Shown here piece after piece: positions 3,021 through 59,716 of a stretch of 64,000 nt of DNA. The translations under genes were made by a program, and so were the position numbers. The notes below the pieces were generated by a model. It was given only the letters and a program-made list of their open reading frames with translations, had not been told where the DNA came from and ran no database searches. The stretch comes from an uncultured Ignavibacteria bacterium (lineage in GTDB: Bacteria; Bacteroidota; Ignavibacteria; Kapaibacteriales; UBA2268): positions 1 through 64,000 of the forward strand of contig CAIOZA010000050.1 in the NCBI GenBank assembly GCA_903862655.1. Direction: 5' to 3'. The stretch's first letter is position 1; each line of letters starts with the position of its first letter.

Positions 3021-3473
3021 TTATACCATCTCCTTTGGGGAATAAATACTTATCAATTTATAAGAGTTCATTAAGTTTACTGAGTTGAATCCTGAAATTT
3101 TTTCGAAATGAACAATATGTTTAAAATTCCAACTTACTACAAAATCTGCATTATATATCGTTGCATATGCTATATGTTCAGCATCTGTTTTAGATTTATT
3201 TGTCAGCACTTTTGCATTAAGATATTTATCTCTAAGTTCTGACACCTCAGGAGTATAATAAACAAAATCAAATAAATCCTGAGTCATATCGGTAAGGATT
3301 TGTTTTACCACCTTTGGAGCTTCAGCTAATTCTGCTAATAAAATTGGAGAAATTATCAACTTGAAAGAACCATCCTTAACTAATTTGAAGAACATCTTGC
3401 TGGTTTCAGCAAATTCTTCATCGAAACAGCCACCGAAAACTGAAGTATCAGCATAAACTCTATATTGTTTCAC
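3021..3473 (-). CDS. PIN-domain toxin (VapC-like)
   Basis: RVYADTSVFGG, LLAELAEAP and DAEHIAYATIYNADFVVSWNFKHIV are PIN-domain signatures. Confidence 0.8.
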   Translation of the reverse strand: MKQYRVYADTSVFGGCFDEEFAETSKMFFKLVKDGSFKLIISPILLAELAEAPKVVKQILTDMTQDLFDFVYYTPEVSELRDKYLNAKVLTNKSKTDAEHIAYATIYNADFVVSWNFKHIVHFEKISGFNSVNLMNSYKLISIYSPKEMV

Positions 3474-29192: not shown

Positions 29193-29194
29193 AA

Positions 29195-39890: not shown

Positions 39891-40844
39891 ATGAATATTC
39901 TTGTAGTTGGCGGTTCCGGATATATAGGTGGTGCTATCACCGATTTATTACTAGAAACAAATCATAAGGTTCTGGTTTACGATTCACTGTTGTACGAAGA
40001 TAGCTATAGAAAAGTAGTTGACTTCATATATGGTGATATGAGAGATACAGCAAAGTTAAAAAAATATCTTGATTGGTCTGATGTTGTAATCTGGCTGGGT
40101 GCCTTAGTAGGTGATGGTGCTTGTGCACTAAATCCCGATGTAAGTGTTCAGATAAATCAAAATACAGTGAAATGGTTATCAGAAAATTATGATAAACGAA
40201 TTATATTTATGTCAACATGTTCTGTTTATGGTGCTCAGGACGGAGAGCTTAATGAAGACTCACCTCTAAATCCGCTATCTGTTTATGCTGTTACTAAAGC
40301 TAATGCTGAACGGCACTTGAAAGATAATAATGCGATAATTTTCCGACTAGGAACTATTTTCGGTGTTTCCGATTTATTCTCAAGAATTAGAATGGATCTT
40401 GTTGTCAACTTATTAACTCTAAAAGCTTTCATGGATAATAAACTTTCAGTATTTGGCGGAGATCAGTTCAGGCCATTACTGCATGTTAAAGATGTTGCCA
40501 GAGCCGTTGTTGCGAATGTTGATACTGATTTTACAGGAGTTTACAATTTACACAGACAGAATGTTAGAATCATTGATTTAGCATATCAAATAAGAAATCA
40601 TTTTCCTGATGTTGAAATGCAGGTTTCAGAGATGCAGTTCCAGGATACGAGAAATTACAGAGTAAGCAGTGATAAGGCTAAAAATATTCTTAAATGGAAA
40701 TCGATTTACTCTATTGATGATGGAATTGATGAAGTTAAGGAATTGCTTGAAAATCGCAGAATAAAAGATGTAATGAACCCCAGATATACTAATCAAACAT
40801 TTTTGAAGCAATTTGTTCCGGAATTAGAAAAAATAGTTTATTGA
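39891..40844 (+). CDS. NAD-dependent sugar epimerase/dehydratase (SDR)
   Basis: MNILVVGGSGYIGGAITDLLLE, FMSTCSVYGAQDG...NPLSVYAVTKANAE. Confidence 0.9.
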   Translation: MNILVVGGSGYIGGAITDLLLETNHKVLVYDSLLYEDSYRKVVDFIYGDMRDTAKLKKYLDWSDVVIWLGALVGDGACALNPDVSVQINQNTVKWLSENYDKRIIFMSTCSVYGAQDGELNEDSPLNPLSVYAVTKANAERHLKDNNAIIFRLGTIFGVSDLFSRIRMDLVVNLLTLKAFMDNKLSVFGGDQFRPLLHVKDVARAVVANVDTDFTGVYNLHRQNVRIIDLAYQIRNHFPDVEMQVSEMQFQDTRNYRVSSDKAKNILKWKSIYSIDDGIDEVKELLENRRIKDVMNPRYTNQTFLKQFVPELEKIVY

Positions 40845-41297: not shown

Positions 41298-42218
41298 ATG
41301 AGCGAGAAAATATTAATAATGGGTGGTTCAGGTATGTTAGGTAGTATGGTTGCTTCACATCTTGTGAATTTGTTCGATTATATGACCTGTACAGTCCGTT
41401 CTGAGGATCTTATTGATAAATGCAGCAAAAAACTAGATAATTCAAATTGGATAAAGTTTGATGTTAACGATTACTTATCTTCAGTTGAAGACTATTCCTT
41501 TCTTAGTGATTATGACTGGATTGTGAATTGTATAGGTATTACAAAACCTTTCTGCAAGGATGACAATCCTGCACAAATACAAAATGCTATCAACGTTAAT
41601 TCATTATTCCCTAATTTACTTTCTAAGAATCTTTTGGATAGTAAAACAAAGATTATTCAAATCGCTACTGACTGCGTATATTCTGGTTTTAAGGGAGATT
41701 ATGCCGAAACTGACAAACACGATGCTTTGGATGTTTACGGTAAGACAAAAAGCTTAGGAGAAACAAAGTATCAGAATACTTATAATCTGCGCTGCTCAAT
41801 CATTGGACCTGAATTCGACAGAAATACATTTCTAATAGAGTGGTTCATGAATCAGCCAAAAGGTACTTCGGTAAATGGATTTGATAATCATGACTGGAAC
41901 GGAGTAACAACTCTGCAATTTGCAAAAATTGCAGGTGGAATTATTCAGAATCAATTATCACCCAGTAATCTCCAACATATTATTCCTTCAGGTAAAGTTA
42001 CCAAATATGATATGTTGAACGTGTTTGCTAAATATTATAATAGAGAAGACATCAAAATAAGTAAACAAAATGCTGCTGATAGAATCGACAGAACCTTAAC
42101 TACCAATGATCATGAAATGAATAAAAAATTATGGACTGCTGCCGGATATAGCGATACACCTACTTTTGAGAAAATGATAAAAGAACTTTCTGAATTTGAT
42201 TATAAATTTAAAAATTGA
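41298..42218 (+). CDS. SDR-family sugar reductase (RmlD-like)
   Basis: ILIMGGSGMLGSMVASHL, IQIATDCVYSGFKGDYAETDKHDALDVYGKTKSLGE. Confidence 0.87.
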   Translation: MSEKILIMGGSGMLGSMVASHLVNLFDYMTCTVRSEDLIDKCSKKLDNSNWIKFDVNDYLSSVEDYSFLSDYDWIVNCIGITKPFCKDDNPAQIQNAINVNSLFPNLLSKNLLDSKTKIIQIATDCVYSGFKGDYAETDKHDALDVYGKTKSLGETKYQNTYNLRCSIIGPEFDRNTFLIEWFMNQPKGTSVNGFDNHDWNGVTTLQFAKIAGGIIQNQLSPSNLQHIIPSGKVTKYDMLNVFAKYYNREDIKISKQNAADRIDRTLTTNDHEMNKKLWTAAGYSDTPTFEKMIKELSEFDYKFKN

Positions 42219-43306
42219 TTATGAAAATACTAACAATTTTAGGAACAAGACCTGAAATAATTCGACTAAGCAAAATTATTCCCAAAATAGATAATTTGGC
42301 TGAACAGATAATTGTTCATACCGGTCAGAACTATGATTACAATCTAAATGAGCTGTTCTTCAAACAATTGGGACTTAGAAAACCAGATTTCTTCCTAAAT
42401 GCCACTGGGACTTTTACTGAACAAATTGGTACAATATTAATCAAACTAGAACAAATAATAAAAAAAACTAAACCAGACAAATTTCTGGTTCTTGGCGATA
42501 CTAACAGCAGTATGGGAGCTATTGTTGCAAAGAGACTTTCTATACCTGTTTATCACATGGAGGCTGGGAATAGATGTTATGATGATCGAGTTCCGGAAGA
42601 AGTCAACAGAAGAATCATTGATCATTCAAGCGATATCTTAATGCCATATACGGAAAGAAGCAGAAAGAATTTGCTTAACGAAGGTTTAAAAGGGCAAAAG
42701 ATTTTTGTTACCGGTAATCCAATCTATGAAGTAATCGAGTCATATAGGGATGACATTGAAAAGAATAAAATTCTTTCAGAATTAAAACTAAAGGCTCAGG
42801 GCTATTTTTTGGTTACTCTGCATAGAGAGGAAAATGTAGACAATTTACAACGTTTAACAAGTATTATTAAAGGATTAGATCTAATCCAAAAAGAATACAA
42901 AAAACCTGTAATTATCAGTACTCATCCTCGCACTAAAAAAAGACTTAAAGAATTTAAAATGAAAATTATCAATAAAAATCTTAAATTTATGGAACCTTTT
43001 GGTTTCTTTGAATTTTTAAAGCTTGAGCTTAATGCTTTTTGTGTGTTGAGCGATAGCGGCACTGTTCAAGAAGAATGTTCGATTTATGGAATCCCCAATG
43101 TAACTATGAGAGACGTAACCGAAAGACCGGAAACAATTGAATGCGGATCGAACATATTGAGCGGAGCAGATTCTGAAACGATATTTAACTGTACAAAAAC
43201 CGTACTATCGTCACAATATAATTGGGTTCCGCCTCCGGAATATCTTGTCAATAATGTGAGTGATACTGTAATCAAGATTTTAATGGGATACCATCATAAA
43301 TATTAA
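42215..43306 (+). CDS. wecB: UDP-N-acetylglucosamine 2-epimerase (non-hydrolysing)
   Basis: ILTILGTRPEIIRLSKIIPK, HTGQNYDYNLNELFF, HREENVDN, LSDSGTVQEE. Confidence 0.92.
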   Translation: MIMKILTILGTRPEIIRLSKIIPKIDNLAEQIIVHTGQNYDYNLNELFFKQLGLRKPDFFLNATGTFTEQIGTILIKLEQIIKKTKPDKFLVLGDTNSSMGAIVAKRLSIPVYHMEAGNRCYDDRVPEEVNRRIIDHSSDILMPYTERSRKNLLNEGLKGQKIFVTGNPIYEVIESYRDDIEKNKILSELKLKAQGYFLVTLHREENVDNLQRLTSIIKGLDLIQKEYKKPVIISTHPRTKKRLKEFKMKIINKNLKFMEPFGFFEFLKLELNAFCVLSDSGTVQEECSIYGIPNVTMRDVTERPETIECGSNILSGADSETIFNCTKTVLSSQYNWVPPPEYLVNNVSDTVIKILMGYHHKY

Positions 43307-43339: not shown

Positions 43340-44902
43340 ATGAGCCAAAACGAAAATATAATAAATGATATTTTAATTGCATTCGAGCAAAAAAAATATA
43401 ATTATGCTATATTGCTTATAGAGAAGTACGAAAATGAATTCAGTACTTATGAAGGATACCCAAATCTTTTAAATTTAAAAGGATATGCTTTCTTGTTCCT
43501 AAATGACCATGAAAGTGCCTTTTATGCTTTCGAAAATTCTATCAAGATTTTTCCAGATTTTTCGCCAGCTTATATAGGCATTTCACAAATACATTTAATT
43601 AGAGGGGAAGAAGAACAAGCATTAATTTATTTTCAAAAAGCTCAATTTCTAAACACAAATATTTCTGAAACTGGCATTAAATTGAAACAGTTTGAGATAG
43701 GATTAATACAAAATTTAACAGAAAGTTTATATATTTCGAAACAAATAGCTTTAGTTGAAAGTTATTTAAACTTAAACCAAATAATAGAAGCCCAAAAAGT
43801 AGTTGAAGAAACACTATTTCATAATAAAATTAATATTCTTCTGCTTAATAATTTTTCCATAATCTTTGCAAAACATTATAAATTAACAGAAGCAACTAAT
43901 TATATCCAAAAAGTTTTACTAATTGAACCTACAAATGAGATAGCTATATCAAATTTGAAGATTATTAATAATCAAAATCTTACTCCACCTGTTGAGAAAA
44001 GAGAAAAAATTGATATTTACTTAGAGCTTAATACTTATTGTAATTATCTATGTATCTTTTGTGAGAATGATAAAATCATCGAAAAAAAGATGATTTCTTT
44101 ATCTGAGATAAAAGGATTAGATGAAATGGTAAAAATTGCTAAGATGGTTGATATTACTGGAGTAGGTGAAATTACATTGCATAAAGAATTTAAGGATATT
44201 CTGGAATATTTTACTGATAGATCAATCCCAGTTCGTTTTGTTACAAATGGTTATAATTTAACAGAGAGTATTGTAGATTTAATAGTAGAATCATCAGTGA
44301 ATGAGTTAGTTATATCCGTCAATTCTTTAGATAAAGAAAATTACAAATATCTTATGGGAAAAGATGGCTTAGAAAAAGTCTTAAAGAATATCGACTATTT
44401 AACAAAGCACTATAAAGGAGTTTTAGAATTCTCTTTTGTTATCAATAAAATTAATTTAGATGAAATTGGAAGTTTTATCGATTTTGGTGCTAAATACAAA
44501 AAGCATGTGGCTTTACTTGGACTTACTCCAACTTCAAATTATCCAGCAGAATTAGAATTAGATTATAATGAAGAAACATCGCAAAAATTAAAACATTTTA
44601 AAGAATATGCCAAAGAAAAAGGAATCAGCTTTTGGATGTTCAATTTTGAAAATCAAATAGATAGCACAGATAGAGGAAAGAATCTGACTGATGTAATAAA
44701 GAGTTGTGACTGGGTGTACAAAAAATTCTTTGTTAATGCGAACGGTGATGTATCTCCATGTTGTTGGAGTAAGAGAATTATGGGTAATATTTATAAAGAA
44801 TCTTTTAATGAAGTCTGGCTGGGAGAAAAGTACAATGAATTAAGATCTCTTGTGGCACGCGGTGACCCTAAATATTGTTTAAAATGCAGAAGAGCCGGAT
44901 AA
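43340..44902 (+). CDS. TPR-radical SAM/SPASM fusion protein
   Basis: N-terminal TPR units; CNYLCIFC (CxxxCxxC); C-terminal CDWVYKKFFVNANGDVSPCCWS...CLKCRR. Confidence 0.88.
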   Translation: MSQNENIINDILIAFEQKKYNYAILLIEKYENEFSTYEGYPNLLNLKGYAFLFLNDHESAFYAFENSIKIFPDFSPAYIGISQIHLIRGEEEQALIYFQKAQFLNTNISETGIKLKQFEIGLIQNLTESLYISKQIALVESYLNLNQIIEAQKVVEETLFHNKINILLLNNFSIIFAKHYKLTEATNYIQKVLLIEPTNEIAISNLKIINNQNLTPPVEKREKIDIYLELNTYCNYLCIFCENDKIIEKKMISLSEIKGLDEMVKIAKMVDITGVGEITLHKEFKDILEYFTDRSIPVRFVTNGYNLTESIVDLIVESSVNELVISVNSLDKENYKYLMGKDGLEKVLKNIDYLTKHYKGVLEFSFVINKINLDEIGSFIDFGAKYKKHVALLGLTPTSNYPAELELDYNEETSQKLKHFKEYAKEKGISFWMFNFENQIDSTDRGKNLTDVIKSCDWVYKKFFVNANGDVSPCCWSKRIMGNIYKESFNEVWLGEKYNELRSLVARGDPKYCLKCRRAG

Positions 44903-44989: not shown

Positions 44990-46240
44990 ATGAAAATGAT
45001 CTCAAAATCAAACCAAATAGGAAATTTTCGGATTCCTAAAGAAAATAATGAAGATAGAACAAGATCTGAATACATATCTTTTGGACGTCCAAACTTTAGT
45101 GAAGAAGAAATCGAAGCTGTAGTGAATACAATGAGTTCAGGTTGGGTAGGAATGGGTAGTGAAACGCTAAAATTTGAAGAGGAATTAGCCCAATTCATGA
45201 AAGCACCATTTGTATCAACTGTTAACTCTTGTACCTCTGCCCTATTTTTAGCACTAAAAGTTCTTGGAATAAGGAAAAATGATGAAGTCATTTGTCCTAG
45301 TTTAACATGGTGTAGTGATGTAAATTCGATTTTATATAATGATGCCAATCCGATTTTTTGTGATATAGATCCACAAACATTAAATGTTTCTACTAAAACA
45401 ATTCTAGAAAAAGTAACTAACAGAACTAAAGCTGTTATTGTTGTTCATTATGCTGGTTTAGCTGTAGATGTCAAAGAGTTGAGAAGTAATTTACCAGGAA
45501 GAATTAAAATTGTTGAAGATGCTGCTCATGCGCTTGGATCATTTTACGAAGACAATACACCTGTTGGCTCATCGAGCAATATGACATGTTTTTCATTTTA
45601 TGCGAATAAAAATCTTTCAACAGGCGAAGGTGGCGCAATAGCAACAAATGAAGAAACAAAAAATGAAATAATAAAGTCACTACGACAAAATTCAATGAAT
45701 GTTAATGCATGGAATAGATTTGTAAACCCTAAATCAATTTTATATTCTGAGATAATTACTTTAGGCTATAAAATGAACTATACAGATCTCCAAGCTTCTA
45801 TTGGCAGAGTACAGTTAAAAAGACAGATCGAATTTAGTGAAACGAGAACAATTATAGGAGATTATTATTATAATGAATTACAGAAATTACAACCACAAGT
45901 GAAGTTTCAAAAAAATGTTACTGACCATAAACATTCAAAACATCTTTTTGTAATAATACTTCCAAATGATAAACTTAATATCAGTAGAGATGAGTTTGTG
46001 TTGAAATTAAGAGAACAGAATATAGGAGCCAGTATACATTACTATCCGCTTCATTACATGCCACTGTATAGTCAATATGGAACAAATCTAATTCAAACAG
46101 AAAAAATTGCTTCGTCAATAATAACCTTGCCAATTAGTGCAAGCATGACAATTGAAGATGCAGAATATGTTGTAGAAAAATTTAAAAATATCTATTTGAA
46201 TCATTTAATAAACAAAATTACTAAAGGCAATCGAAAATGA
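44990..46240 (+). CDS. DegT/DnrJ/EryC1/StrS sugar aminotransferase
   Basis: FGRPNFSEEEIEAVVNTMSSGWVGMG, VEDAAHALGS, FSFYANKNLSTGEGGAI. Confidence 0.95.
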   Translation: MKMISKSNQIGNFRIPKENNEDRTRSEYISFGRPNFSEEEIEAVVNTMSSGWVGMGSETLKFEEELAQFMKAPFVSTVNSCTSALFLALKVLGIRKNDEVICPSLTWCSDVNSILYNDANPIFCDIDPQTLNVSTKTILEKVTNRTKAVIVVHYAGLAVDVKELRSNLPGRIKIVEDAAHALGSFYEDNTPVGSSSNMTCFSFYANKNLSTGEGGAIATNEETKNEIIKSLRQNSMNVNAWNRFVNPKSILYSEIITLGYKMNYTDLQASIGRVQLKRQIEFSETRTIIGDYYYNELQKLQPQVKFQKNVTDHKHSKHLFVIILPNDKLNISRDEFVLKLREQNIGASIHYYPLHYMPLYSQYGTNLIQTEKIASSIITLPISASMTIEDAEYVVEKFKNIYLNHLINKITKGNRK

Positions 46241-47226
46241 AATCAGTATCTGATTCTGAAAAGAAATATGGCTTTTACGATCGCTTAACTGAAAGCTTTC
46301 CATCACAACTCTTGGTGGATGTAGCAGAATTTTGCAATTTAGCTTGCATCCATTGTCCTCATAGCGAATTTAAGAAATCCGAACATTATAGTGGTGCCAA
46401 GCTTGATCCGGATTTAAATAAAAAATTAGTAAATGAAGTGAAATTGCATGGTAAGGGAACAAGTCAATATATCCGTTATACAAGCAATGGAGAGCCACTA
46501 ATCCATCCTGAGATTTATAATATGCTCAAATATGCTGTCGATAATTCGGGGACCAAGGTTACATTGACTACAAACGGAACATTTTTGAATGCAGAAAAGG
46601 CCGATAAGCTTCTTGATACCGGAATATCTGTCGTTGATATTAGTATAGACGCATTTACAAAAGACACTTATTCCAGAATAAGGATCAATGGTAATCTTGA
46701 CGTTACAGCATCAAATGTAATTCATCTAATAAATATGGTTAAAGTAAACAAGCTTAGAACCAAAATTGTTGTAAGTTTTGTAGAAATGCCAGAAAACATG
46801 CACGAAACTAATAAGTTTGAAGAATATTGGAAAGAACAAGGTGCTGATTATGTAGTAATTCGTCGGCAGCATTCATGTTCAGGTGCAAAAGAAGAGCTTG
46901 CTGACGATAGAAGAAATAATAATAAGAAAATTGATAGAAAACCATGTCTCTATCCATGGGAAAGAATTGTATTAGGACCAAAAGGATGGTTAAGTTTTTG
47001 TCCTTCTGATTGGGTTGAAGGATCACATATAATTGATTATAATAAAACCACAATAAAAGAAGTGTGGACGGGTGGGTTTTATAAATTATTAAGACAAGCA
47101 CACTTGAGTAATGATTTCACTAATCATAAATTTTGTGGGCAATGTCCTGATTGGGTTGCAACTCGATGGCCAAACGAAGGCAGAAGTTATGCTAATATGG
47201 TTGAAGAATTTGAGGAAAAAATATGA
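46237..47226 (+). CDS. Radical SAM/SPASM protein
   Basis: CNLACIHCPHSEF; GPKGWLSFCPSDW...FCGQCPDW. Confidence 0.9.
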   Translation: MKSVSDSEKKYGFYDRLTESFPSQLLVDVAEFCNLACIHCPHSEFKKSEHYSGAKLDPDLNKKLVNEVKLHGKGTSQYIRYTSNGEPLIHPEIYNMLKYAVDNSGTKVTLTTNGTFLNAEKADKLLDTGISVVDISIDAFTKDTYSRIRINGNLDVTASNVIHLINMVKVNKLRTKIVVSFVEMPENMHETNKFEEYWKEQGADYVVIRRQHSCSGAKEELADDRRNNNKKIDRKPCLYPWERIVLGPKGWLSFCPSDWVEGSHIIDYNKTTIKEVWTGGFYKLLRQAHLSNDFTNHKFCGQCPDWVATRWPNEGRSYANMVEEFEEKI

Positions 47227-47951
47227 ATATTAAGAAATACAAAGAAGAGAATGTATGGAATTCCATCACTGAAGATGTTAAAGATATTTATGGCTGGTCA
47301 CCTATTGAGCAGCTATATTCTTTAAATATGCTTGGTCTGTTAACGCAAGATCTTGAAGGTGATATTTTGGAAATCGGTTCCTGGGGAGGACGATCTGCGG
47401 TTGCTTTAGGATTATCGGCTAAAGAATCAGGTAAATCTCAAGTTCATTGTATTGATTATTTTCCTGATGCATCTGATTGGAGTGTTAATGAAGATGGCAC
47501 TTACTCATTTACAGTTGATCTTGAGAACCACATTTTACCTGGTCATAAACAACAAACAGTTTGGAAAGAACCCTTTGAGGAGTCTATAAAACCATTTTAT
47601 GATGAACATCCAAATCTACTCGAATATTTTAATGAAAATATAAATAAATGCGGACTTAGTGAGTTTATTAAACCTTTTCGAGGAAATATTCAAATGTTTT
47701 TAAATACAGTTTCTGAAGATTTTAAATGCAGATTAGCATTTATTGATGGAGAGCATAGTTATAATGCAGTGAAATCTGATATTGCTAACATTCAGAATCA
47801 TTTAGTACATAATGGTATAATTAGTTTTGATGATGCCTTTACTAGTTACGATGGAGTAGATACTGCGATAAATGAGATGATAATAGAATCAGGAAATTTT
47901 TATAATTTTAGAAAACTAACAAGAAAACTTTTTATTGCGTTTAAAAAATAG
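47223..47951 (+). CDS. Class I SAM-dependent methyltransferase
   Basis: GDILEIGSWGGRSAVALGLSAKESGKSQVHCIDYF, AFIDGEHSYNAVKSDI. Confidence 0.88.
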   Translation: MNIKKYKEENVWNSITEDVKDIYGWSPIEQLYSLNMLGLLTQDLEGDILEIGSWGGRSAVALGLSAKESGKSQVHCIDYFPDASDWSVNEDGTYSFTVDLENHILPGHKQQTVWKEPFEESIKPFYDEHPNLLEYFNENINKCGLSEFIKPFRGNIQMFLNTVSEDFKCRLAFIDGEHSYNAVKSDIANIQNHLVHNGIISFDDAFTSYDGVDTAINEMIIESGNFYNFRKLTRKLFIAFKK

Positions 47952-47962
47952 GATATTTATAA

Positions 47963-48721
47963 ATGACTGTCGGAATAATTCAATCAAGCTATATCCCCTG
48001 GAAAGGTTATTTCGATTTTATTGATGACGTCGATGTATTTGTAATGTATGATGATGTGCAGTACTCAAAAAACACATGGAGGAACAGGAATAAAATTAAA
48101 ACAGCTTTAGGTACAACATGGCTAACAGTTCCAGTTAAGTATAATTCATTATCAAAAATAATTTCAGAGACTGAGATTGATTATAATCAAGACTGGCAGT
48201 CTAAGCATCTTAGATTAATTAAAGAAAATTATTACAAATCGGATTTCTTCGAACAAATATATGATGAATTTTCAGAACTTATTTTAAATAAATATAATAA
48301 TATTTCCCAACTTAATGTTGCGTTAATAAAATGGATTATGAATAAACTGGGAATAAACACTCCGTTAGTTATGTCCGCTGAGTTAAATCCAATGGGTTCA
48401 AAGACTGAAAGAGTCATAGACATTCTAAAAAAACTCAAAGCCACAGAGTATCTTTCCGGACCATCTGCGGAAAATTATCTTGATTATAAAATGTTTGAAG
48501 AAGTAGGAATTGGACTAAATTACAAATCTTATATTTACAAAGAATACCCCCAGCAAAATTCTCCTTTCGAAGGTGAAGTAACCATATTGGATTTACTCCT
48601 TAATATTGGTTTAAACTCTAGAGAATTTTTTAAAAGTAAAATATCTAACAAAATTATAATTCCTCATTCCTATCAGGTCAAAATAATATCTGCTATGAGT
48701 GGATTAACAACTGGAGCATAA
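47963..48721 (+). CDS. WbqC family protein
   Basis: VGIIQSSYIPWKGYFDFIDDVDVFVMYDDVQYSKNTWRNRNKIKTALGTTWLTVPV. Confidence 0.93.
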   Translation: MTVGIIQSSYIPWKGYFDFIDDVDVFVMYDDVQYSKNTWRNRNKIKTALGTTWLTVPVKYNSLSKIISETEIDYNQDWQSKHLRLIKENYYKSDFFEQIYDEFSELILNKYNNISQLNVALIKWIMNKLGINTPLVMSAELNPMGSKTERVIDILKKLKATEYLSGPSAENYLDYKMFEEVGIGLNYKSYIYKEYPQQNSPFEGEVTILDLLLNIGLNSREFFKSKISNKIIIPHSYQVKIISAMSGLTTGA

Positions 48722-51700
48722 ATGACTGATTTGGATAAAATCATATCTGATATATCAAATAATGAAGAATTTGAATATAGTGAATTATTTAAATTTTTAA
48801 CTTCAGAGAATAACGAAGAAAGAGCCAGTATTTTGGCTAGATTTTCCAAAGCTTTCTATAATCGGAAGGGAAGGCATTTAGACCAAGCAGAGATCTTTGC
48901 AAAACGAGCTTATTCTATTTCAAATGATAAGATTTATTATTCAAATCAATTGGTAGATATTTTGATCGAACAACAAAAAGTAGAAGATGTCAAACAAATA
49001 TATAAAAGAGTTGGTCTGGAGTATCTAAAAATACACCAAATTAAAGAAGCTCTTTTTTATTTTGACAAATGGCTCTATGCTTATCCGGATATTTTAAAAA
49101 TTGATAAGTATGAATATGATTTGGATATTCTGGACGCTATTAATGCTTATGTTGCAAATAAAGGATTTGAATCAAATTCTATGAGCCATTGCTTAGACAG
49201 CAAATTAAAGATCGGATTTCTTGTTAAAGGTATTACAGAATCAAATTCTGTTTTAATTAAAATTAATTATCTTATTGCAAAATATCTTGATAAAATGATA
49301 TTTAAGTTGAGCTTCTTTTTTCCTGAGACTGAAAGTGAAATCTTAAATTCAAAACAAGGAAAGTCACTTTTAGAATCTTTCCACAAACTTGATGTCAAAT
49401 GTTTTTATGCTGAAGACATTTCGGATTATGAAAAACAATTATTTAGTGTTGTAGAAAAAATTAAATCTGAAAGAATAATTTTATTGGTAATGAGTGATTC
49501 TCTTGGTACATTTAGTCATTACTTTATTAGCTCATTTAAGCCTGCACCCATAATGCTTGGGCTCTTACAGGGGCCACCACCGCAATTTATTTCATCTTTG
49601 CTTGACTGGGCTATCTCTTGGAGTTATCACCCTTTAATTGATTCGCCAGTTCCAACTAAATATGTAAAATTACAGATGGAACTACCAAACAAAAATGATA
49701 TAGTACTAAGAACAAAGCAATTTTTTGGGTTGCCAGAGAAATCTCAAATTATTTTGTCAGGTGGCAGGTATGTAAAATTCCAGGATATTCAATATGTCGA
49801 GTCTTTATTGAATATACTAATAAAAGATTCTAATAGATACCTTGTAATTATAGGTCCAAGTATAGAACAAATCCCTTTTATTGTAAACCTAGCAGAAGAA
49901 GAAATTCTAAATAGAGTAAGAATATTTCCATGGATGGAAAATTATCTTGAATTAGCCCGGCATGCAGATGTGATGATTGATACATATCCATCAGGAGGTG
50001 GTGTTCTGCCTTTCGACATTGCATCATTGGGGATTCCCATTATTTCCTTTCAAAATGATTACCTTAATGAATTTGACCAAACACAATGGTCACCTTTGCA
50101 GGAGTTTATTAGTAATGATGAATTGACGCTAAAAAGAGGTGACTATAAATCTATAACAGAATTGGCTGATAGATTGCTTGGAGATGATGAAATGAAAACA
50201 AGGTTAGGAAACAAATGTAAAGAAGAAATCTATGAGAAAGTTAGTCACCCAGAAGTAACAGTTAGGAAATGTGAAGAAGTATTTTTTAAGCTTATTCAGG
50301 ATCGGTTAGGTTCGGAATACATTCCATATAGTGAAAAGGAAAACAATATGATTAGCGAAGATTCAAGATCAAAAAATATAGAACCTTCTGTAAAACCTAT
50401 CTTTTCTGCCGGTGTTTCTGCGAATAATCAGGACAACTATCTAGCTAAAACAGGAGTATCTGAGCCTGCACCATCAGAAGATAATGGAAATCTGGAATAC
50501 TGGAAAGAAATGCAAAATGATGAGTATTTCGAAAAACATGATTGGTATGGAAAAAAATATGGAGGATTAAAGCTTTTTGGCGATGATATGGGTATTATTA
50601 ATAACTATACCAATCTTTCCAAATCAATGAATACAGTTGTAATCGGTTGTGGGTACGGTAGGGAATCTGTTAATATTGGGCCACATGTAAATCATATTTA
50701 TGGTATTGATGTTAGTGAGACTATTCTCAATAAAGCCGTCGAATTCACGAAACAAAATGGAGTTTATAACTTCACACCGGTTTTGGCAGACAACTGGGAG
50801 GAATCAATACCTGAAAACATAGACTTTGTTTATACATTTGTCGTATTCCAGCATCTTTCAAAAAGTTTGGTCAGAAATTATATTTCAGGTTTAAGAAAAA
50901 AATTGAATGCAGGTGGCCGGTTCTTATGCCAATTCTGTGAATCCGACTATGGTTCTGAGGATGCTGAATTGAAAGTTTACGAGCCTAATGTAAAATGGAC
51001 CAGACAGGAAATTATCGATCTTATTAGAGAAAATAATCTAAATGAAATTACGATTCAGACTACCCAGGTAACAGAAAGTGCACGGTTTCATTGGGCATTG
51101 TTTGAGAAGGCTGAGAATGGCGAAAATACAGAATCTGATTTATCGAAAAAATTTGATAGACATTCATTAAAACCCTTATTCTCAATAATAGTACCATCCT
51201 ACAACCAGGCTGATTACTTGCCCGCTGCTTTAGATTCCATACTTGCCCAGACATTTACAGACTGGGAAACTATTATTGTTAATGATGGATCAACAGATAA
51301 TACCAAATCTGTAATGGAGGAATATACAAGGAAAGATTCAAGATTTAAATTATATCATAAAGATAATGGTGGCGTTGCAACAGCCCTGAATATAGGCATC
51401 AAACAATCAAAAGGCGAATGGATCTGCTGGCTATCCAGTGATGACCTGTTTGAACCCGATAAACTTGAAATTCATTATAAAGCAATCCGAGAGCATCAGA
51501 ATATAAAATTCTTCTGTACTCATTGGTATATCTTAATGCATGAGACACAGCAAAAGATAGCTCCTGGCCTTTGGCTTCCTGTTCCTCCAAAGGAATTTCA
51601 GGTAACTCGATTCTTCTGGGCTAACTATATACACGGCAATTCAATAGCAATTCACAAAACCGTTTTTGATAAAGTAGGTTTATTCGATGAAACTTTGCGA

Positions 51701-54700
51701 CAGGGACAGGACTTCGATATGTGGTTGCGAATATCAGCCTGTTATGAATCGCATTTTATAGATAAAAGAACTTGTGTTACCAGAATCCATCCTGATCAGA
51801 CTACAAATTCGTTTCTTGAAGGAGGGGTGCTTGACTCCACAAGAGCGTTATTTAAATATTTAGATAATAATTCATTCGAAGCACTTTTCCCGTTCTTCGA
51901 TTTTAATAATACAAATGATATAATGCTTGCTTTAGGTGAAGTTTTTTTTGTTTCTACCAAGATAGATGCTTTTTTATATAGATGTGGATATACAAAAGCA
52001 CTAGTTGAAAGGACTTTGGAATGGGTTTCAAACAAACTAGAATTAAATATAAGAAATCAAGTATATGAAATAATTGAAAGAGTAGTAAATGAGCACCTTA
52101 AGGATAAAAAACCTGAAGGTCTTGTTCAGGTATTAAAATCGTTTTTAAATAAGGATAATGTTCATTATAAAGAATTGGATTTTATAAATGTGGTTGTTGA
52201 TTATATAAAATTAAATATTGATGAAGGCTTACAACAAAAAACAATTGCTCTTGAGAAATATTTAGAAAAATTGCTATCTCAGAATGCGGTTGAATATCAT
52301 AATATTAAGTATAATCCTGTACTTTTGGGTTTTCCAAAGGTCAATGAATATTCACCAATAAAATCCACTAATATTATTAATTGGGGTGTTGAACCTGTTG
52401 GAATGCATAGTAATTGCATAAGACAGAAAATAATATTAAAGTGCGATTCCTGTGGATCTGATATCTCAATCCAATTTGAATACGAGATGAACGAAGAGCA
52501 TTCTGAGTATAAATTTATTTGTACCCATTGCAAAAAAGGATTTTTATTCGATGATAAAGATTTTGATATAAATTTTATGGAGTTCCATAATAATTCTGTC
52601 ATCCATGAACCAAAACATATAACAACCAGGAATATTGCCTATTTGATTCCTGATATGTCGTCAATTGGTGGTGGGACTAAAATAGCTTTAAAACATATAC
52701 AATGGCTTTTCAATTTAGGTTATGATGTTACATCCTATTCCTATTCAGTTAAACCTGATTGGCTAGATACTAATATACATTTTATACAGATCAAGGACGC
52801 TACTGAATTAGATGAGCGAACATCAGATTTATTTATAATTTCTAGCATTTTTGATATACCCAAAATACTAAATAAGATTCCCATCCATAAAGTAGTACTA
52901 CTTTGTCAGGGTTATGAAGGCTATCATTTTGGTAGCGATTTCATAAAATTGAGATCTGATAAACATATTTTAACAAAACTTCATTCTATCCCTGTTAAGG
53001 TTATAACGGTATCTAAACATCTTGTTGAACTTTTTAAAACCAAATTTAATCGTGAAGTAGAATACATTCCGAATTGCATAGATCATAATGTTTTTACATA
53101 TTCGGGTTATACTCCCGACAGGGAGAAATCAATATTATTTATTGGCAATCCATTTCATACTTTAAAAGGATTTCCTTTCATTGCAGGTGCTTTGAAAATA
53201 ATTCAGGATTCACAAGTAAAAATTTCTTCTTTGAAACTATATATTGTCATGGGTTTTGAATTTGATAACCATGAAACAATTCGGATGAATCTTGAAAGGG
53301 ATATAGGATGCAGAGTTGAATTTCTTTTCAAATTGAGCTCATTCGAAATTGGTGCACTTATGAAAAGAGTAAGTATTGTTGTTTGTACATCATGGTATGA
53401 AGGATTCTCTCTGCCTCTCATTGAGGCTATGGCATGCGGAACTCCTGTAATAACAACTAATAATATGGGTGCTGAGAGTTTCTGTAAGAATAAGACTAAT
53501 TCATTTGTAGTGAGATTTGGTGATAATATAGGTTTGGCTCAAGGTATAATAGATATTTTATATAACCGCTTTGATATGAGTTTGATTTTACAGAATGCAT
53601 ATCAAACTTCCCTAGAATATTCGGAACTTAACTCAGAAAAAGCACATAAAATAGCTTTTAAGCATTTAATTGCATCATCAATTAAGCAATTTGATATTGA
53701 TTCTAATAGTGACGCATATAGTTCAAAGAATATTTATTCTACCAGAAATACCTTTACAAGAACTATTGATAATGACAAAGAAGATAATTCAATACAATTA
53801 AAAGTAAAATCTGATGTTTTTGAAATTAAAAAATATTCTGAAAGAATTCTTTTTGTAGTTCATAACTTCCCAATGAATTGGGCTGGAGGAACCGAACTAT
53901 ATACTTATAATTTAGCGTTAGATCTAATTAATTCAGGCAAGGATGTCCATGTCTTATTCCCAAGTCCTGATAGTTATACAAATAGAACCATAATAACAGA
54001 AAGTAATTATAATGGTATTAAAATCTTCGAGGTAAAATATAAGCATAATTGCTATTCAAAGGAAGAATTTTCGAGTCTATTCGAGGAGCTAATAGTTAAA
54101 GAACAATACGATGTTGTACATTTTCATCATACTAAAGGCTTACATCAAGAGATATTCGATATTCCAATAAAATTAAAGATTAAATCGGTTCTAACTATTC
54201 ACGATTTTCACTTAGTTTGCACCAGGCTTCATCTTTACATTCCTGATACAAATCTTGTTTGCACCGGACCTGAGACTCCTCAAAAATGTGTTGAATGTTT
54301 GATTTCAGATGCTCCTGATACAGAAAAATATAAACTAATCACAAAGGAACTAAGCAATCAGTTATCACATTTAAAAAGCATATTTCCTTATTTCGACTTA
54401 GTTACAGCGCCATCAAGATATGTCAAAAATGTATTTGAGTCAAATAATCTTTTGAATAAAAATTTTATAATCAAGGAATTAGGCATAAAAAAAATAGTCA
54501 GTCAAAGAGTAAAAAGAGAAGGAAAAGATCTAGTCTTTGGATTTGTTGGTGCTTTACACAAATTAAAGAATATTGAACTATTACTAAATGTGTTTGAATC
54601 GATTACTTCAGATAATGTAAAATTAGAAATATGGGGAAATGGTCATCCAATAACAATTGAAGGGCTAAAACAAAGAACTGCGGATAGTAAAAATATTCAA

Positions 54701-57700
54701 TATTTTAGAGACTATTCCTATGAAGAAATAGGAGATATCCTCTCAAGATTTGATGTACTTATTGTGCCGTCGTTCAATGAAAGCTATTGTTTAACTGTAA
54801 GAGAAGCATTGTCGGTTAACTTACCCGTTATAGCTTCAAGTAGAGGCGGTATACCCGAGGTTGTCATTGACAATGTTAATGGGATACTGTTTGATCCGTC
54901 AAATAAAATAGAATTAGTTAATATCATCAATAAAATCATTGATGAGCCTGATATTTTGGGTAGATTAAGAAAGTCAGAAATTGAAATAAGAGATCTCAAA
55001 AAAGATATTGATGATTGGGCAGATATTTATTCTAATCTCATAAAATCAAATTTGGAATATAAACCCAGATTACTTGAAGAAATTGATTTCTCAATAATTA
55101 TTCCTGTTCATAATAAATGGCAATTCACAAAAGCTTGTATAGAATCAATTGAAAGCACAAATGGTAATAATAAATTAGAAATAATAATTATTGATAATGC
55201 ATCCAATGACAACACTGGAGAATATTTGAAATCCTTAGGCAGAGATATAAAGGTAATTTCACACACTACTAATGAAACTTATGCTAAGTCAAATAATGAA
55301 GGTGCCAAAATATCTAAGGGAAAATATCTTGTTTTCTTAAACAATGATACTCAAGTTCTGTCAGGGTGGTTAGAAGCTATTAAAATTGAATTTGATAATA
55401 ACCCTTCTACCGGGATTCAGGGAGCTAAGTTACTATATCAAAACGGGAAAATTCAGCATGCTGGTATGGTGTTTGGTTCAAGACCTGGTAGAGATGCTGA
55501 GCCATATCACGCCTATTTAATGGCTGATCCTAATGCTTCGTTCGTCAATAAACGCAGAGAAGTTCATTTCGTAACTGGTGCATTATTATCAATCAGAAAG
55601 GATGATTTTAATAAAGCAGGTGGTTTTGATGAGCAATATAACTTTGGTTGGGAAGATACTGATCTTTGCATGAAGGTTTCTACATTAGGAAAAAGAATAA
55701 TATATAATCCATTGATTTCAGCTTTCCATTTTGAATCAGCAACAAAACTTCTGAGACAAAGCATTGGCGACGATATGGTTAGCGATAATACTCCTAAAGA
55801 AAAAAGGAACAGAGAGATATTCTTTAATAAATGGTCAAGTATGCTAACAGATAACTCATACGAGTTCTATGCTGAGGATGGATTGAAAATTCAGGAGAAC
55901 TCCATTATTCCTATGAATGACAATGAATTGGCTCTATATGCAAGTAAAAGAGAGGAAATGAAATCTATTCACTCAAATTATATCTCATCCTTCGCCAAAT
56001 ATTTCTGGCAGACCAATTATGACTCAATATCATCTCTCCTAATCATTCCTACTTCAGCAGTTGGGGATAATCTGATGCTTACGGCTTTGGTGGCGGCTTT
56101 GAAGGCTCAGTTCCCTCATCTTTCTATCTATATTAAACGGAACAGGATGGCTGATCTGATTTTTAAGGGTCATGGAGGAATTGCAGGATATGTTACGAGT
56201 GAAGATGAGAGTAAGTTTGACAAGACAATTGATTTTAATAATATTATTGCGAAATTGCCTGAGTATTACAATGGAATTGCCTTTATGGATATTCTTGGCA
56301 ATCTAGCCGGATTTAAGTTCGTTAAGCGTGACATAGTTTATCAGATAAGCGACATTGAAAGAGGGAGAGCAAAGAAGGCGTTAAAGAATTTTGATGGGCA
56401 TGAAATCGTTGGTGTTCATTTTTCGACTTCAAAGGATGTTAAGAGATCCTATCCTCATGGAAGGGAATTGCTAAAAATTCTTGAGCATAAGAATCCAAAT
56501 CTGAGGTTTGTTCATTTCGGTAATGAAAGTATCGGGAAACTTAATGATAGTTATGTGTTTGATTGTGCCGAAAATTCTGTAGATTTACGATCACAGATTG
56601 CAATTGCTGAACAGTGTTCAAAGTTCATCACGATTGACAGTGCATTCTTCCACATCGGGCATAATTTATTTAGAAAGCCAACTCTTGCAATTCTTGGATT
56701 GACAAATCCGGCGCTAATTGGGTATCACGAAGCCTCTTTTGCTTATATAAATCATGAACTTATGAATTGCCTGAATTGTTATTGGCAGAGACAATGCAAG
56801 ATAGAATGTATGAATGACCTACTTCCAACAGTCATTGCTGAGGCATTTATGGACATTAAGAACCGGATAAAATATTCACCTGAACAACAAGTCTTCGAAG
56901 TCAATGTTGCTGCTGATTTTTATGCAGATAAATTTATATTTGAACATTACGCATCCAGACGTGATGGCACAAAGTTAGTACTGAATGATTATGATGACCT
57001 ACTTCCGGATTACTCAAAATATTGGAATGGAATAGCTATTAAAAAATCTAAGGTTAATAAAACAGAAATGAACAATTACAATTCCCCCGCAGATTATCAG
57101 GAAGAAAGCTATTTCGAGGCTCTTTCCGATAGAAAAATTAAGGTTGGATCGGACAGAACTCAAGCTGAGTCGTTAAAGCTAAATTTGGGTTGCGGCGATA
57201 CGATCGAAGCCGGTTTTATTAATATTGATCTTTATAGTGAAGGTCCTGATATTGTTAATATGGATGCAAGAAGTCTGGAATATGATGATTCAAGTGTCGA
57301 TACTATTCTTGCTGCCGATTTGCTTCAGTGTTTCTCGCATAATGAGATTGGTGATGTTCTTACTGAATGGGTAAGAGTTTTGAAGCCCGAAGGAAAACTC
57401 ATTATTTCCTGCACATCCATGAAACAGATTTCAAGATTACTTCTTAATGGTTTAATAAATTCCGAGATAGCTTCAAAGCTTCTTTTTGGTAACCAAGAAG
57501 ATAATGCTCATATTTATTTCTCGGCATTTGATGAGGATTTTTTAACTAAGGAACTTGTTTCGGCTGGTTTTACTATTGAGTCATACGACGAATCTAACGA
57601 GGCAGAATCATTAGAGGACATTAATATTAGTATTGTTGTTGGTGCAGTAAAATCTAAAAACCATAGTATGCCCGAACTTACAAATGAGAATTCTACTGCC

Positions 57701-59716
57701 AATCAGGTATCGAACTTGAGTTTTAATTTTGGTGACTCGAATGAAGATATAAAGAATGTGAAAGCCGAAGAAACATTTGATAATAGCTTACTGTCAGGTT
57801 TGAGCTTTAATTTTGATAATAAGGGAGAAGAAGCCGAATACGAGGTAATGGAACCGGAACAGGAATTTGATAATCAGGATTATTTTGAAGCCCTATCGGA
57901 TAGGAAGCCGGTAGTTATGCAGTCTCCAACAATCAGCAAAGATGGGCCTCAAATCAATATAGTCTGGGAGGGATCTCAGTTTGTATGGCATTCTCTGGCT
58001 CTGATTAATCGGGAAATATGTTATAATATTATCAAAAGCGGAGTAGCCGAAGTAACAATTGTTCCTTACGAGCCTGATACTTTTCTGCCGGAAGGTAATC
58101 CAAAATATGAAATACTAAAACAGCATGATATAAGATATAAACTTGAGGCTGACAGCAGGACAAAACAACTTCCTTACTCCTGGATAAGGCATCAGTGGCC
58201 GCCCAAAGCAGAAGAACCAAAAGGTTCAAAATGGTTTATTATTCAGCCATGGGAATTCTCAACATTGAGAACAGATTTTGTAAGCATCTTCCAGAATGCC
58301 GACGAAGTCTGGACGCCATCGAATTATTCACGTAATTCATTCATTAATTCAGGAATTGAATTTGATCATGCTCAGGTTATTCCTAATGGATGCGATCCTG
58401 AACTATGGTCGCCAATGGGTAAGCGATTTAAATTTAATACAGATAAGAAGCTGAAGTTTCTGTTTGTTGGTGGAACAATCTACCGAAAAGGGATAGACAC
58501 TCTGCTTCAGGCTTACGTGCGGTCTTTTACCGGATCGGACAATGTAAGCCTTATCATCAAGGATATGGGAGGCGATTCGTTTTACGCGGGACAGACAGCT
58601 AAAGATCAGATAGATATTATTCAAAAATCTGAAAATGCACCCGAAATAATCTATATTGACGATTACTTCACAGAAGAGCAGATGGTTGAGCTGTACAAGG
58701 CTTGCGATGTGTTTGTTTGCCCTTATCGTGGCGAAGGCTTTTCTTTGCCAACACTAGAGGCTATGGCAAGCGGATTGCCCGTTATTGTTACTAAAGGTGG
58801 CTCAACCGATGATTTCGTGGATGAATCAATAGGATGGCTGATTTCATCGGAAAAGAAATCAATTGGGCGCGAGATTGGCGGATTACCACTCACAGGCGAA
58901 GCCTATCTGCTGGAGCCTAATCAGGATGAATTAGTTGAAACTTTGAAGAATATTTATGGTGATCCTTCTCAGATCTTCTCGAAAGGTCTGCTTGCTTCAT
59001 TAAGGGCAAGAACAGAATGGACATGGAAGAAAGCAACAGTTAAGCTGCTTTCGAGATTGGATTTGCACAATGGCACAACTATGGCAAAGACAGCAGAGGT
59101 GAATTTGGTTGATTATACCGATGATGCTATTGTTCTCGGGGAAATTGAAAAGAAGATAATTGCCAAAGATTCAGAAACTGCTTATGATGAATTGAAGAGA
59201 TTACTAAGGAATACAAAGCTGACCGGCAGAATGCTTCATCACGCGTATTGCAGAATGGCAGAGCTCTGCGTTAATCTTATGAAGCTGGACGAAGTGGATC
59301 AGTATTTGCAAAAAGCCGGGGAAATCTATCATTCGGTAGATGAGCTTTATCTGGAAGCTAACAAGCATTTTGCAGAAGAAAAATACTCGGATGCTCTGGA
59401 TAGCGCAACAATAGCTATGCAAAGCTGGAAGGACGATAAATACGATTCTACAATTGGGATCAACATACAAGAACTTCTATCGTTTACAGCGGATTCACTG
59501 CTCAATGATGAAGATCCGAACGGGGCATTGCAAATTTATCTTGAAGTGTTGAAGTTAAATAACAATAATGCAAACGCGTACTTCGGAGCCGGAGTCTGCC
59601 ATCTTGAAATTGGTTCCAGGGATGATGCCCGGAGGATGTTCGAATGGGCTTTGAGAATAAATCCTGACTATGAAATGGCAAAAAAATTGATAGAAGGGCT
59701 AAAAATAACACAATAA
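48722..59716 (+). CDS. Giant multi-domain glycosyltransferase/methyltransferase (3,664 aa)
   Basis: In order: TPR-like; GT41-like (~49.2-50.3 kb); MTase (VIGCGYGRES, ~50.6); GT2 (FSIIVPSYNQADYLPAALDSILAQ, ~51.2); CxxC/CxxC zinc ribbon (~52.4); GT4 (~52.6); GT4 (~53.8); GT2 (FSIIIPVHNKWQF, ~55.1); GT9-like (IPTSAVGDNLMLTALVAALKAQFP, ~56.0); MTase (LNLGCGDTIEAGFINIDL, ~57.2); GT4 (~58.0-59.0); TPR (~59.1-59.7). Confidence 0.9.
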   Translation: MTDLDKIISDISNNEEFEYSELFKFLTSENNEERASILARFSKAFYNRKGRHLDQAEIFAKRAYSISNDKIYYSNQLVDILIEQQKVEDVKQIYKRVGLEYLKIHQIKEALFYFDKWLYAYPDILKIDKYEYDLDILDAINAYVANKGFESNSMSHCLDSKLKIGFLVKGITESNSVLIKINYLIAKYLDKMIFKLSFFFPETESEILNSKQGKSLLESFHKLDVKCFYAEDISDYEKQLFSVVEKIKSERIILLVMSDSLGTFSHYFISSFKPAPIMLGLLQGPPPQFISSLLDWAISWSYHPLIDSPVPTKYVKLQMELPNKNDIVLRTKQFFGLPEKSQIILSGGRYVKFQDIQYVESLLNILIKDSNRYLVIIGPSIEQIPFIVNLAEEEILNRVRIFPWMENYLELARHADVMIDTYPSGGGVLPFDIASLGIPIISFQNDYLNEFDQTQWSPLQEFISNDELTLKRGDYKSITELADRLLGDDEMKTRLGNKCKEEIYEKVSHPEVTVRKCEEVFFKLIQDRLGSEYIPYSEKENNMISEDSRSKNIEPSVKPIFSAGVSANNQDNYLAKTGVSEPAPSEDNGNLEYWKEMQNDEYFEKHDWYGKKYGGLKLFGDDMGIINNYTNLSKSMNTVVIGCGYGRESVNIGPHVNHIYGIDVSETILNKAVEFTKQNGVYNFTPVLADNWEESIPENIDFVYTFVVFQHLSKSLVRNYISGLRKKLNAGGRFLCQFCESDYGSEDAELKVYEPNVKWTRQEIIDLIRENNLNEITIQTTQVTESARFHWALFEKAENGENTESDLSKKFDRHSLKPLFSIIVPSYNQADYLPAALDSILAQTFTDWETIIVNDGSTDNTKSVMEEYTRKDSRFKLYHKDNGGVATALNIGIKQSKGEWICWLSSDDLFEPDKLEIHYKAIREHQNIKFFCTHWYILMHETQQKIAPGLWLPVPPKEFQVTRFFWANYIHGNSIAIHKTVFDKVGLFDETLRQGQDFDMWLRISACYESHFIDKRTCVTRIHPDQTTNSFLEGGVLDSTRALFKYLDNNSFEALFPFFDFNNTNDIMLALGEVFFVSTKIDAFLYRCGYTKALVERTLEWVSNKLELNIRNQVYEIIERVVNEHLKDKKPEGLVQVLKSFLNKDNVHYKELDFINVVVDYIKLNIDEGLQQKTIALEKYLEKLLSQNAVEYHNIKYNPVLLGFPKVNEYSPIKSTNIINWGVEPVGMHSNCIRQKIILKCDSCGSDISIQFEYEMNEEHSEYKFICTHCKKGFLFDDKDFDINFMEFHNNSVIHEPKHITTRNIAYLIPDMSSIGGGTKIALKHIQWLFNLGYDVTSYSYSVKPDWLDTNIHFIQIKDATELDERTSDLFIISSIFDIPKILNKIPIHKVVLLCQGYEGYHFGSDFIKLRSDKHILTKLHSIPVKVITVSKHLVELFKTKFNREVEYIPNCIDHNVFTYSGYTPDREKSILFIGNPFHTLKGFPFIAGALKIIQDSQVKISSLKLYIVMGFEFDNHETIRMNLERDIGCRVEFLFKLSSFEIGALMKRVSIVVCTSWYEGFSLPLIEAMACGTPVITTNNMGAESFCKNKTNSFVVRFGDNIGLAQGIIDILYNRFDMSLILQNAYQTSLEYSELNSEKAHKIAFKHLIASSIKQFDIDSNSDAYSSKNIYSTRNTFTRTIDNDKEDNSIQLKVKSDVFEIKKYSERILFVVHNFPMNWAGGTELYTYNLALDLINSGKDVHVLFPSPDSYTNRTIITESNYNGIKIFEVKYKHNCYSKEEFSSLFEELIVKEQYDVVHFHHTKGLHQEIFDIPIKLKIKSVLTIHDFHLVCTRLHLYIPDTNLVCTGPETPQKCVECLISDAPDTEKYKLITKELSNQLSHLKSIFPYFDLVTAPSRYVKNVFESNNLLNKNFIIKELGIKKIVSQRVKREGKDLVFGFVGALHKLKNIELLLNVFESITSDNVKLEIWGNGHPITIEGLKQRTADSKNIQYFRDYSYEEIGDILSRFDVLIVPSFNESYCLTVREALSVNLPVIASSRGGIPEVVIDNVNGILFDPSNKIELVNIINKIIDEPDILGRLRKSEIEIRDLKKDIDDWADIYSNLIKSNLEYKPRLLEEIDFSIIIPVHNKWQFTKACIESIESTNGNNKLEIIIIDNASNDNTGEYLKSLGRDIKVISHTTNETYAKSNNEGAKISKGKYLVFLNNDTQVLSGWLEAIKIEFDNNPSTGIQGAKLLYQNGKIQHAGMVFGSRPGRDAEPYHAYLMADPNASFVNKRREVHFVTGALLSIRKDDFNKAGGFDEQYNFGWEDTDLCMKVSTLGKRIIYNPLISAFHFESATKLLRQSIGDDMVSDNTPKEKRNREIFFNKWSSMLTDNSYEFYAEDGLKIQENSIIPMNDNELALYASKREEMKSIHSNYISSFAKYFWQTNYDSISSLLIIPTSAVGDNLMLTALVAALKAQFPHLSIYIKRNRMADLIFKGHGGIAGYVTSEDESKFDKTIDFNNIIAKLPEYYNGIAFMDILGNLAGFKFVKRDIVYQISDIERGRAKKALKNFDGHEIVGVHFSTSKDVKRSYPHGRELLKILEHKNPNLRFVHFGNESIGKLNDSYVFDCAENSVDLRSQIAIAEQCSKFITIDSAFFHIGHNLFRKPTLAILGLTNPALIGYHEASFAYINHELMNCLNCYWQRQCKIECMNDLLPTVIAEAFMDIKNRIKYSPEQQVFEVNVAADFYADKFIFEHYASRRDGTKLVLNDYDDLLPDYSKYWNGIAIKKSKVNKTEMNNYNSPADYQEESYFEALSDRKIKVGSDRTQAESLKLNLGCGDTIEAGFINIDLYSEGPDIVNMDARSLEYDDSSVDTILAADLLQCFSHNEIGDVLTEWVRVLKPEGKLIISCTSMKQISRLLLNGLINSEIASKLLFGNQEDNAHIYFSAFDEDFLTKELVSAGFTIESYDESNEAESLEDINISIVVGAVKSKNHSMPELTNENSTANQVSNLSFNFGDSNEDIKNVKAEETFDNSLLSGLSFNFDNKGEEAEYEVMEPEQEFDNQDYFEALSDRKPVVMQSPTISKDGPQINIVWEGSQFVWHSLALINREICYNIIKSGVAEVTIVPYEPDTFLPEGNPKYEILKQHDIRYKLEADSRTKQLPYSWIRHQWPPKAEEPKGSKWFIIQPWEFSTLRTDFVSIFQNADEVWTPSNYSRNSFINSGIEFDHAQVIPNGCDPELWSPMGKRFKFNTDKKLKFLFVGGTIYRKGIDTLLQAYVRSFTGSDNVSLIIKDMGGDSFYAGQTAKDQIDIIQKSENAPEIIYIDDYFTEEQMVELYKACDVFVCPYRGEGFSLPTLEAMASGLPVIVTKGGSTDDFVDESIGWLISSEKKSIGREIGGLPLTGEAYLLEPNQDELVETLKNIYGDPSQIFSKGLLASLRARTEWTWKKATVKLLSRLDLHNGTTMAKTAEVNLVDYTDDAIVLGEIEKKIIAKDSETAYDELKRLLRNTKLTGRMLHHAYCRMAELCVNLMKLDEVDQYLQKAGEIYHSVDELYLEANKHFAEEKYSDALDSATIAMQSWKDDKYDSTIGINIQELLSFTADSLLNDEDPNGALQIYLEVLKLNNNNANAYFGAGVCHLEIGSRDDARRMFEWALRINPDYEMAKKLIEGLKITQ

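Follow-up and report, generated by a model that had tools for sequence, protein, structure and literature searches.

A 3,664-residue multi-glycosyltransferase protein of an Ignavibacteria bacterium as a probable modular glycan synthase of the flagellar system

A single open reading frame (ORF) at 48722..59716 of the window (the whole 64,000-nucleotide stretch of DNA from an uncultured Ignavibacteria bacterium that was analysed) was found to be intact over 3,664 codons on the forward strand, with an ATG start and without an internal stop, just as the earlier note had read it. This ORF, hereafter the giant, begins right behind the stop of a WbqC gene with GGAG ~8 nt upstream as a plausible ribosome site, and it is the last gene of a nine-gene sugar cassette placed next to MnmG, MnmE and an FAD oxidoreductase (DAO):

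38698..39816, + strand: FAD oxidoreductase (DAO), marking the putative ancestral site; in genome G041 directly before an 837-aa MT-GT4c-TPR gene
39891..40844, + strand: SDR (GalE/RmlB-like), 65% identical to an SDR of flagellar islands (L016)
41298..42218, + strand: RmlD-like reductase (domain match, homologues)
42215..43306, + strand: non-hydrolysing UDP-GlcNAc 2-epimerase (WecB-like; TIGR00236 above cut-off)
43340..44902, + strand: TPR and radical SAM/SPASM protein (Pfam)
44990..46240, + strand: DegT/PseC-like sugar aminotransferase (profile matches)
46237..47226, + strand: radical SAM/SPASM protein (Pfam)
47223..47951, + strand: methyltransferase (Methyltransf_24; Pfam)
47963..48721, + strand: WbqC-like protein (Pfam)
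48722..59716, + strand: the giant multi-glycosyltransferase/methyltransferase ORF, 3,664 aa (Pfam and translation)

The adjacent SDR, RmlD-like, WecB-like and DegT genes agree with the proposal that sugar-nucleotide genes lie upstream. The cassette also contains two radical SAM/SPASM proteins (43340-44902 and 46237-47226), and a related radical SAM protein is present in the G130 locus (L072). By sequence match, the N-terminal TPR of the protein at 43340 resembles the C-terminal repeats of the giants, which weakly suggests a common client. Elsewhere in the window (28209-30232), a BsuBI/PstI-type restriction endonuclease and a C5 cytosine methylase form a type II restriction-modification pair.

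Along the giant the domains run in the order TPR/GT41-like, MT, GT2, 4-Cys ribbon, GT4, GT4, GT2, GT9, MT, GT4, TPR:

48722..49171, + strand: N-terminal helical TPR-like region, residues 1-150 (model helices, pLDDT mostly 65-85; aligns with L070 and L072 homologues)
49199..50302, + strand: GT41-like (OGT/SPINDLY-like) GT-B domain, residues 160-527 (fold match, homologues; its own ORF in G174 and G130)
50507..51001, + strand: SAM methyltransferase MT1, residues 596-760 (PF13649)
51173..51751, + strand: GT2a, residues 818-1010, first part of the block common with flagellar-locus giants (PF00535; ~50-55% identity to most relatives)
52427..52546, + strand: 4-Cys ribbon, C1241/C1244...C1267/C1270 (cysteines kept in 14/15 sequences)
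52808..53686, + strand: GT4a, residues 1363-1655, last part of the shared block (PF00534, EX7E)
53864..55066, + strand: GT4b, residues 1715-2115 (PF13439/PF00534)
55085..55921, + strand: GT2b, residues 2122-2400 (Pfam; 41-59% identity in own-order giants)
56009..56887, + strand: GT9 domain, residues 2430-2722, with a conserved four-cysteine motif (PF01075 and fold match)
57107..57601, + strand: SAM methyltransferase MT2, residues 2796-2960 (PF08241; homologues)
57869..59131, + strand: GT4c anchor, residues 3050-3470 (36-66% identity in 68 genomes of the order)
59189..59713, + strand: C-terminal TPR, residues 3490-3664 (PF14559; GT4c plus TPR make up minimal relatives of ~600 aa)

A Pfam scan of the giant returned three GT1/4 domains, two GT2 domains, two SAM methyltransferases and the C-terminal TPR. 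With a scan of the GT9 domain alone and predicted models, this bears out the claim of about seven glycosyltransferases and two SAM methyltransferases in one polypeptide, the GT41-like domain being recognized by a low-confidence fold only. The terminal TPRs, the domain order and the CxxC/CxxC ribbon had also been read correctly from the letters. In the alignment of relatives, the GT2 and GT4 catalytic motifs of the core block (SSDD, QDFDMW, EX7E) were intact and conserved, and the translation, read by eye, also shows the motifs of GT2b, the glycine-rich SAM motifs and an EX7E in each of GT4b and GT4c. Internal repeats of the giant gene were confined to short AT-rich matches, and recent duplication was not seen. 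A linker peptide, YFEALSDRK, occurs twice, at residues 2797-2805 (57110-57136, + strand, before MT2) and 3054-3062 (57881-57907, at the start of GT4c); two LSFNF motifs also occur, and both peptides are absent from the relatives examined. GC3 is ~0.22 over much of the N-terminal two thirds and reaches ~0.40 in the GT4c anchor.

For two modules predicted structures were used. Pfam GT41 models did not match the N-terminal domain, and phmmer against the PDB produced weak GT4 matches only (residues 311-528); the top 50 Foldseek matches to its predicted model (pLDDT 63.5, low confidence) were all OGT, SPINDLY or XcOGT. On this low-confidence model the N-terminus would combine helical repeats with an OGT-like GT-B fold, possibly a FlmG-type layout. 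For the GT9 domain phmmer against the PDB found no match. Scanned alone, this domain scored 22.8 bits with PF01075 (cut-off 22), a profile that matched 7/11 homologues, and its model (pLDDT 84) matched GT9 heptosyltransferase structures including that of TibC. The profile and the predicted heptosyltransferase fold together place the module in GT9. Four cysteines of the module (window 55994-56896) are invariant in 11 homologues and, by analogy, could possibly form a metal finger as in TibC.

Homologues were searched domain by domain rather than with the whole 3,664-aa protein. The genome scan identified 14 relatives, confined to Ignavibacteria or Bacteroidetes-labelled MAGs. Residues 818-1655 (GT2, helical stretch, ribbon, GT4) are shared, in part or in full, by nearly all of them at ~38-71% identity. 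Searching with this block recovered 17 other genomes across the class at E<=1e-60 and a single other genome within the window's own order, where the GT2 part alone was covered. The core (residues 812-1638) is collinear with L063 at 55% identity. The C-terminal half showed a different affinity: residues 2123-3657 align as a single block to a giant of at least 2,105 aa from the window's own order (L149 of G047; 47% identity), and GT2b, GT9, MT2 and GT4c all have their closest relatives in that order. Of the 123 genomes examined in the order, 68 have GT4c, at 36-66% identity; elsewhere in the order, ORFs with a complete GT4c run from 593 to 3,011 aa and cluster at 800-900 aa. Because the core is nearest to giants of other orders and the C-terminal half to those of its own, the alignments indicate that the protein combines two kinds of giant in a natural hybrid. 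Strict orthology to the Ignavibacteriales giants was considered and dropped, given the own-order affinity of the C-terminal half. Relatives of 2,000-3,000 aa are present in many independent genomes, and since an ORF of 4,531 aa, with one MT domain and nine or more GT domains, exists in another order (L144:1568-15163, G207:C79; flagellin was not found in the stretch read), the window giant is not the longest. At L119:1853-9969 (G059) the GT4c domain is broken across two ORFs (2,284 and 338 aa), a possible frameshift or decaying copy.

Comparison of these relatives indicated that modules are gained, lost, fused and split. L104 (2,753 aa, five GT2) and L105 (2,136 aa, three GT2) differ in frame by GT2 modules, and an FkbM module present in L067 is missing from L066. 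Residues 1-412 of L067 (MT24-FkbM) correspond at 67% identity to a free-standing 415-aa ORF of L069, where the giant starts at the position of L067 residue 474. TPR-GT41 is encoded by an ORF of its own in G174 and G130, the protein is split at GT9|MT2 in G060, and in G045 the GT4c-TPR part is on another contig (C25 vs C113). The earlier note had held that its reading would fall if the product were split and non-collinear elsewhere; splits were indeed found (L069, G174, G130, G060, G045), but split versions mostly keep a gene order equal to the domain order. One permutation was seen, L059 having GT2b before the GT4b-like domain whereas the window has it after.

The occurrence of the GT4c-TPR anchor was compared with that of flagellin (PF00669) across the 123 genomes of the order. 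All 68 GT4c genomes were flagellin-positive, whereas GT4c was found in 0/45 flagellin-negative genomes (Fisher p = 3e-24, a value that overstates independence because the flagellin-negative genomes cluster in a few clades, family f4 above all). Ten flagellin-positive genomes lacked GT4c. Paired absence was observed within genera: G048, G055, G083 and G003 lack both flagellin and GT4c while their congeners have both, and flagellin-less genomes of genera g8, g10, g24 and g28 are also without GT4c. A control GT4 from the window genome showed no such link (23/78 flagellin-positive vs 20/45 flagellin-negative genomes, p = 0.12). This flagellar association, absent from the earlier note, is accompanied by synteny. 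Core-block giants lie directly upstream of GT2-flagellin-FliD in 12/14 searched genomes with enough downstream sequence, as they do in L010, L011 and L014; the usual order in related genomes is WecB-like, SDR, RmlD-like, giant, 501-aa GT2, flagellin, FliD. GT4c-type giants occupy the slot upstream of GT2, flagellins and FliD in G212, G143 and G215. Flagellin was not found in the stretches read near the core-type loci of G243 and G130 or the GT4c-type loci of G128 and G207. At L075:12949-17856, five tandem flagellin genes adjoin a multi-GT giant.

On the window's 75-kb contig neither flagellin nor FliD was found; the three flagellins of the genome are on contigs C24, C93 and C44, for which reason flagellin is only the presumed acceptor. 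Flagellin glycosylation islands have GT and sugar genes next to flagellin, an arrangement seen at homologous loci in other orders and not at the window locus; with no flagellin on the contig, the giant works like such an island but is not filed as one. It does belong to a family of modular GTs linked to the flagellum, for which we take the GT4c-TPR anchor as the defining part: its GT4c is followed by a C-terminal TPR, and within the order the anchor was confined to genomes with flagellin.

The site itself suggests how the giant may have arisen. G041 has MnmG, MnmE and DAO followed by the 837-aa MT-GT4c-TPR gene, and in G085 an 846-aa version adjoins MnmE-MnmG. The window has MnmG, MnmE and DAO in the same place as G041, then the eight sugar-cassette genes and then the giant, so that an ancestral enzyme of ~850 aa seems to have gained the cassette and, at its N-terminus, ~2,800 residues.

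Could the locus instead build a lipid-linked polysaccharide of the cell surface, be it O-antigen, capsule or S-layer glycan? O-antigen clusters typically contain genes such as the local WecB-, RmlD-, DegT- and WbqC-like ones, and flagellin was not found near the giant in the window. However, the cassette genes scanned include no initiating transferase, flippase or polymerase, and the 68/68 co-occurrence of GT4c with flagellin, their paired loss and the synteny of both homologous halves with flagellin in other orders also speak against this reading, which is unlikely. Less probable still is an assembly chimera or frameshift product joining unrelated genes. The genome is a MAG of 148 contigs, base composition shifts along the ORF, and no relative examined showed the MT1|GT2a or the GT4a|GT4b junction; on the other side, all 3,664 codons remain in frame, the composition shift is gradual with no single break, long stretches align as blocks with L149 and L063, and relatives of 2,000-3,000 aa recur in many independent genomes, with one of 4,531 aa besides.

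The earlier note had also proposed that the order and number of transferases specify a defined oligosaccharide, in the manner of a modular synthase. Whole domains are gained and lost between collinear flanks (L104/L105, L066/L067) and gene order in split versions usually follows domain order, so the analogy holds for modules that come, go and fuse. It finds no support for order and number setting the product: no carrier-protein domain is among the Pfam matches at E<=0.001, the same parts can be encoded apart in ORFs or loci of their own, the order of GT4b and GT2b varies, and the giants of flagellar loci come with one more GT2 that stands alone. Moreover, the acceptor specificity of each GT would suffice to set the order. 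A polyketide-synthase-like line with one transfer per module is consequently very doubtful, and a flagellin version of it, in which each module acts once and passes the growing O-glycan on such that module gain or loss rewrites the glycan predictably, we regard as quite improbable too. A carrier-based megasynthase (PKS/NRPS-like) was rejected as a class, there being no carrier domain among the giant's Pfam matches and, given the split and permuted relatives, no obligate cis order. On these sequence comparisons, the module variation fits ordinary operon and protein fusion with channelling or client-tethering, for which a PKS-like readout is not required.

We consider it likely that the giant works in the cytoplasm as a modular protein-glycan synthase for the flagellar system and arose by module fusion; its acceptor, sugars and order of action we infer. 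Here, the cassette genes would produce at least one unusual amino/deoxy nucleotide sugar, and the C-terminal TPR, perhaps with the N-terminal one, would capture unfolded flagellin before export. The conserved GT4c, or else the OGT-like GT41 module, may add the first sugar to Ser/Thr, the remaining GT modules may extend the glycan, and the two MTs may cap or methylate sugars, with the one-chain architecture keeping all modules near the client. Because ~600-aa forms carry GT4c-TPR without other fused GTs, we propose by analogy that this constant part is the flagellin-binding, and perhaps priming, unit. At the MnmG-MnmE-DAO site, an ancestral MT-GT4-TPR enzyme of ~850 aa would have given rise to the giant by in-frame fusion with variable modules, among them a GT2-ribbon-GT4 block of the type adjoining flagellin in Ignavibacteriales.

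Several GT or MT domains in one chain making one glycan are familiar from WsaE, WbdA and chlorovirus A064R, two- or three-domain GTs with far fewer catalytic domains than the giant and other acceptors. The predicted fold of the GT9 module is that of TibC and GT9 heptosyltransferases (PDB 4rap, 3tov, 1psw), although identity is only 11-15%; the annotation of TibC is that of a glycosyltransferase containing iron, and in the giant's module four cysteines are invariant. FlmG of Caulobacter is a soluble glycosyltransferase that pairs a flagellin-binding TPR with a GT-B domain and glycosylates flagellin in the cytoplasm (PMC7591256), as is proposed for the giant. However, FlmG has 596 aa and one GT and adds pseudaminic acid (PMC7591256), compared with seven GTs and two MTs in the giant, whose conserved TPR sits C-terminal to the anchor GT. 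Flagellin islands of Enterobacteriaceae also combine GT2 and GT41 enzymes, GT41 usually fused to MT domains, with DegT, FkbM, other MTs and high variability (PMC4875605). Each of these islands has one to three separate GTs, which belong to a single family (PMC4875605); in contrast, the giant joins GT2, GT4, GT9 and GT41-like domains in one chain and does not adjoin flagellin in the window genome. In C. difficile type B, sequential GTs, including a flagellin GT2 carrying an MT domain, extend the flagellin O-glycan, but as separate proteins and with GT2 only (PMC5207246). In the literature searched, whose coverage was incomplete, no paper described this family, and giant or multidomain flagellar GTs had no direct match there.

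What stands out in the giant is its unusual size, a strong link to the flagellum that can be tested, and its chimeric origin as read from the alignments. Far from standing alone, it is most likely an unusually long member of a module-swapping, flagellum-tied enzyme family, with flagellin decoration its most likely role. Flagellin glycan diversity is usually ascribed to separate genes whose set varies; in this family it is protein modules that vary, joined into single chains 600 to 4,500 residues long. The natural fused/split and plus/minus-module pairs provide ready comparisons for asking whether GT fusion changes or orders a glycan.
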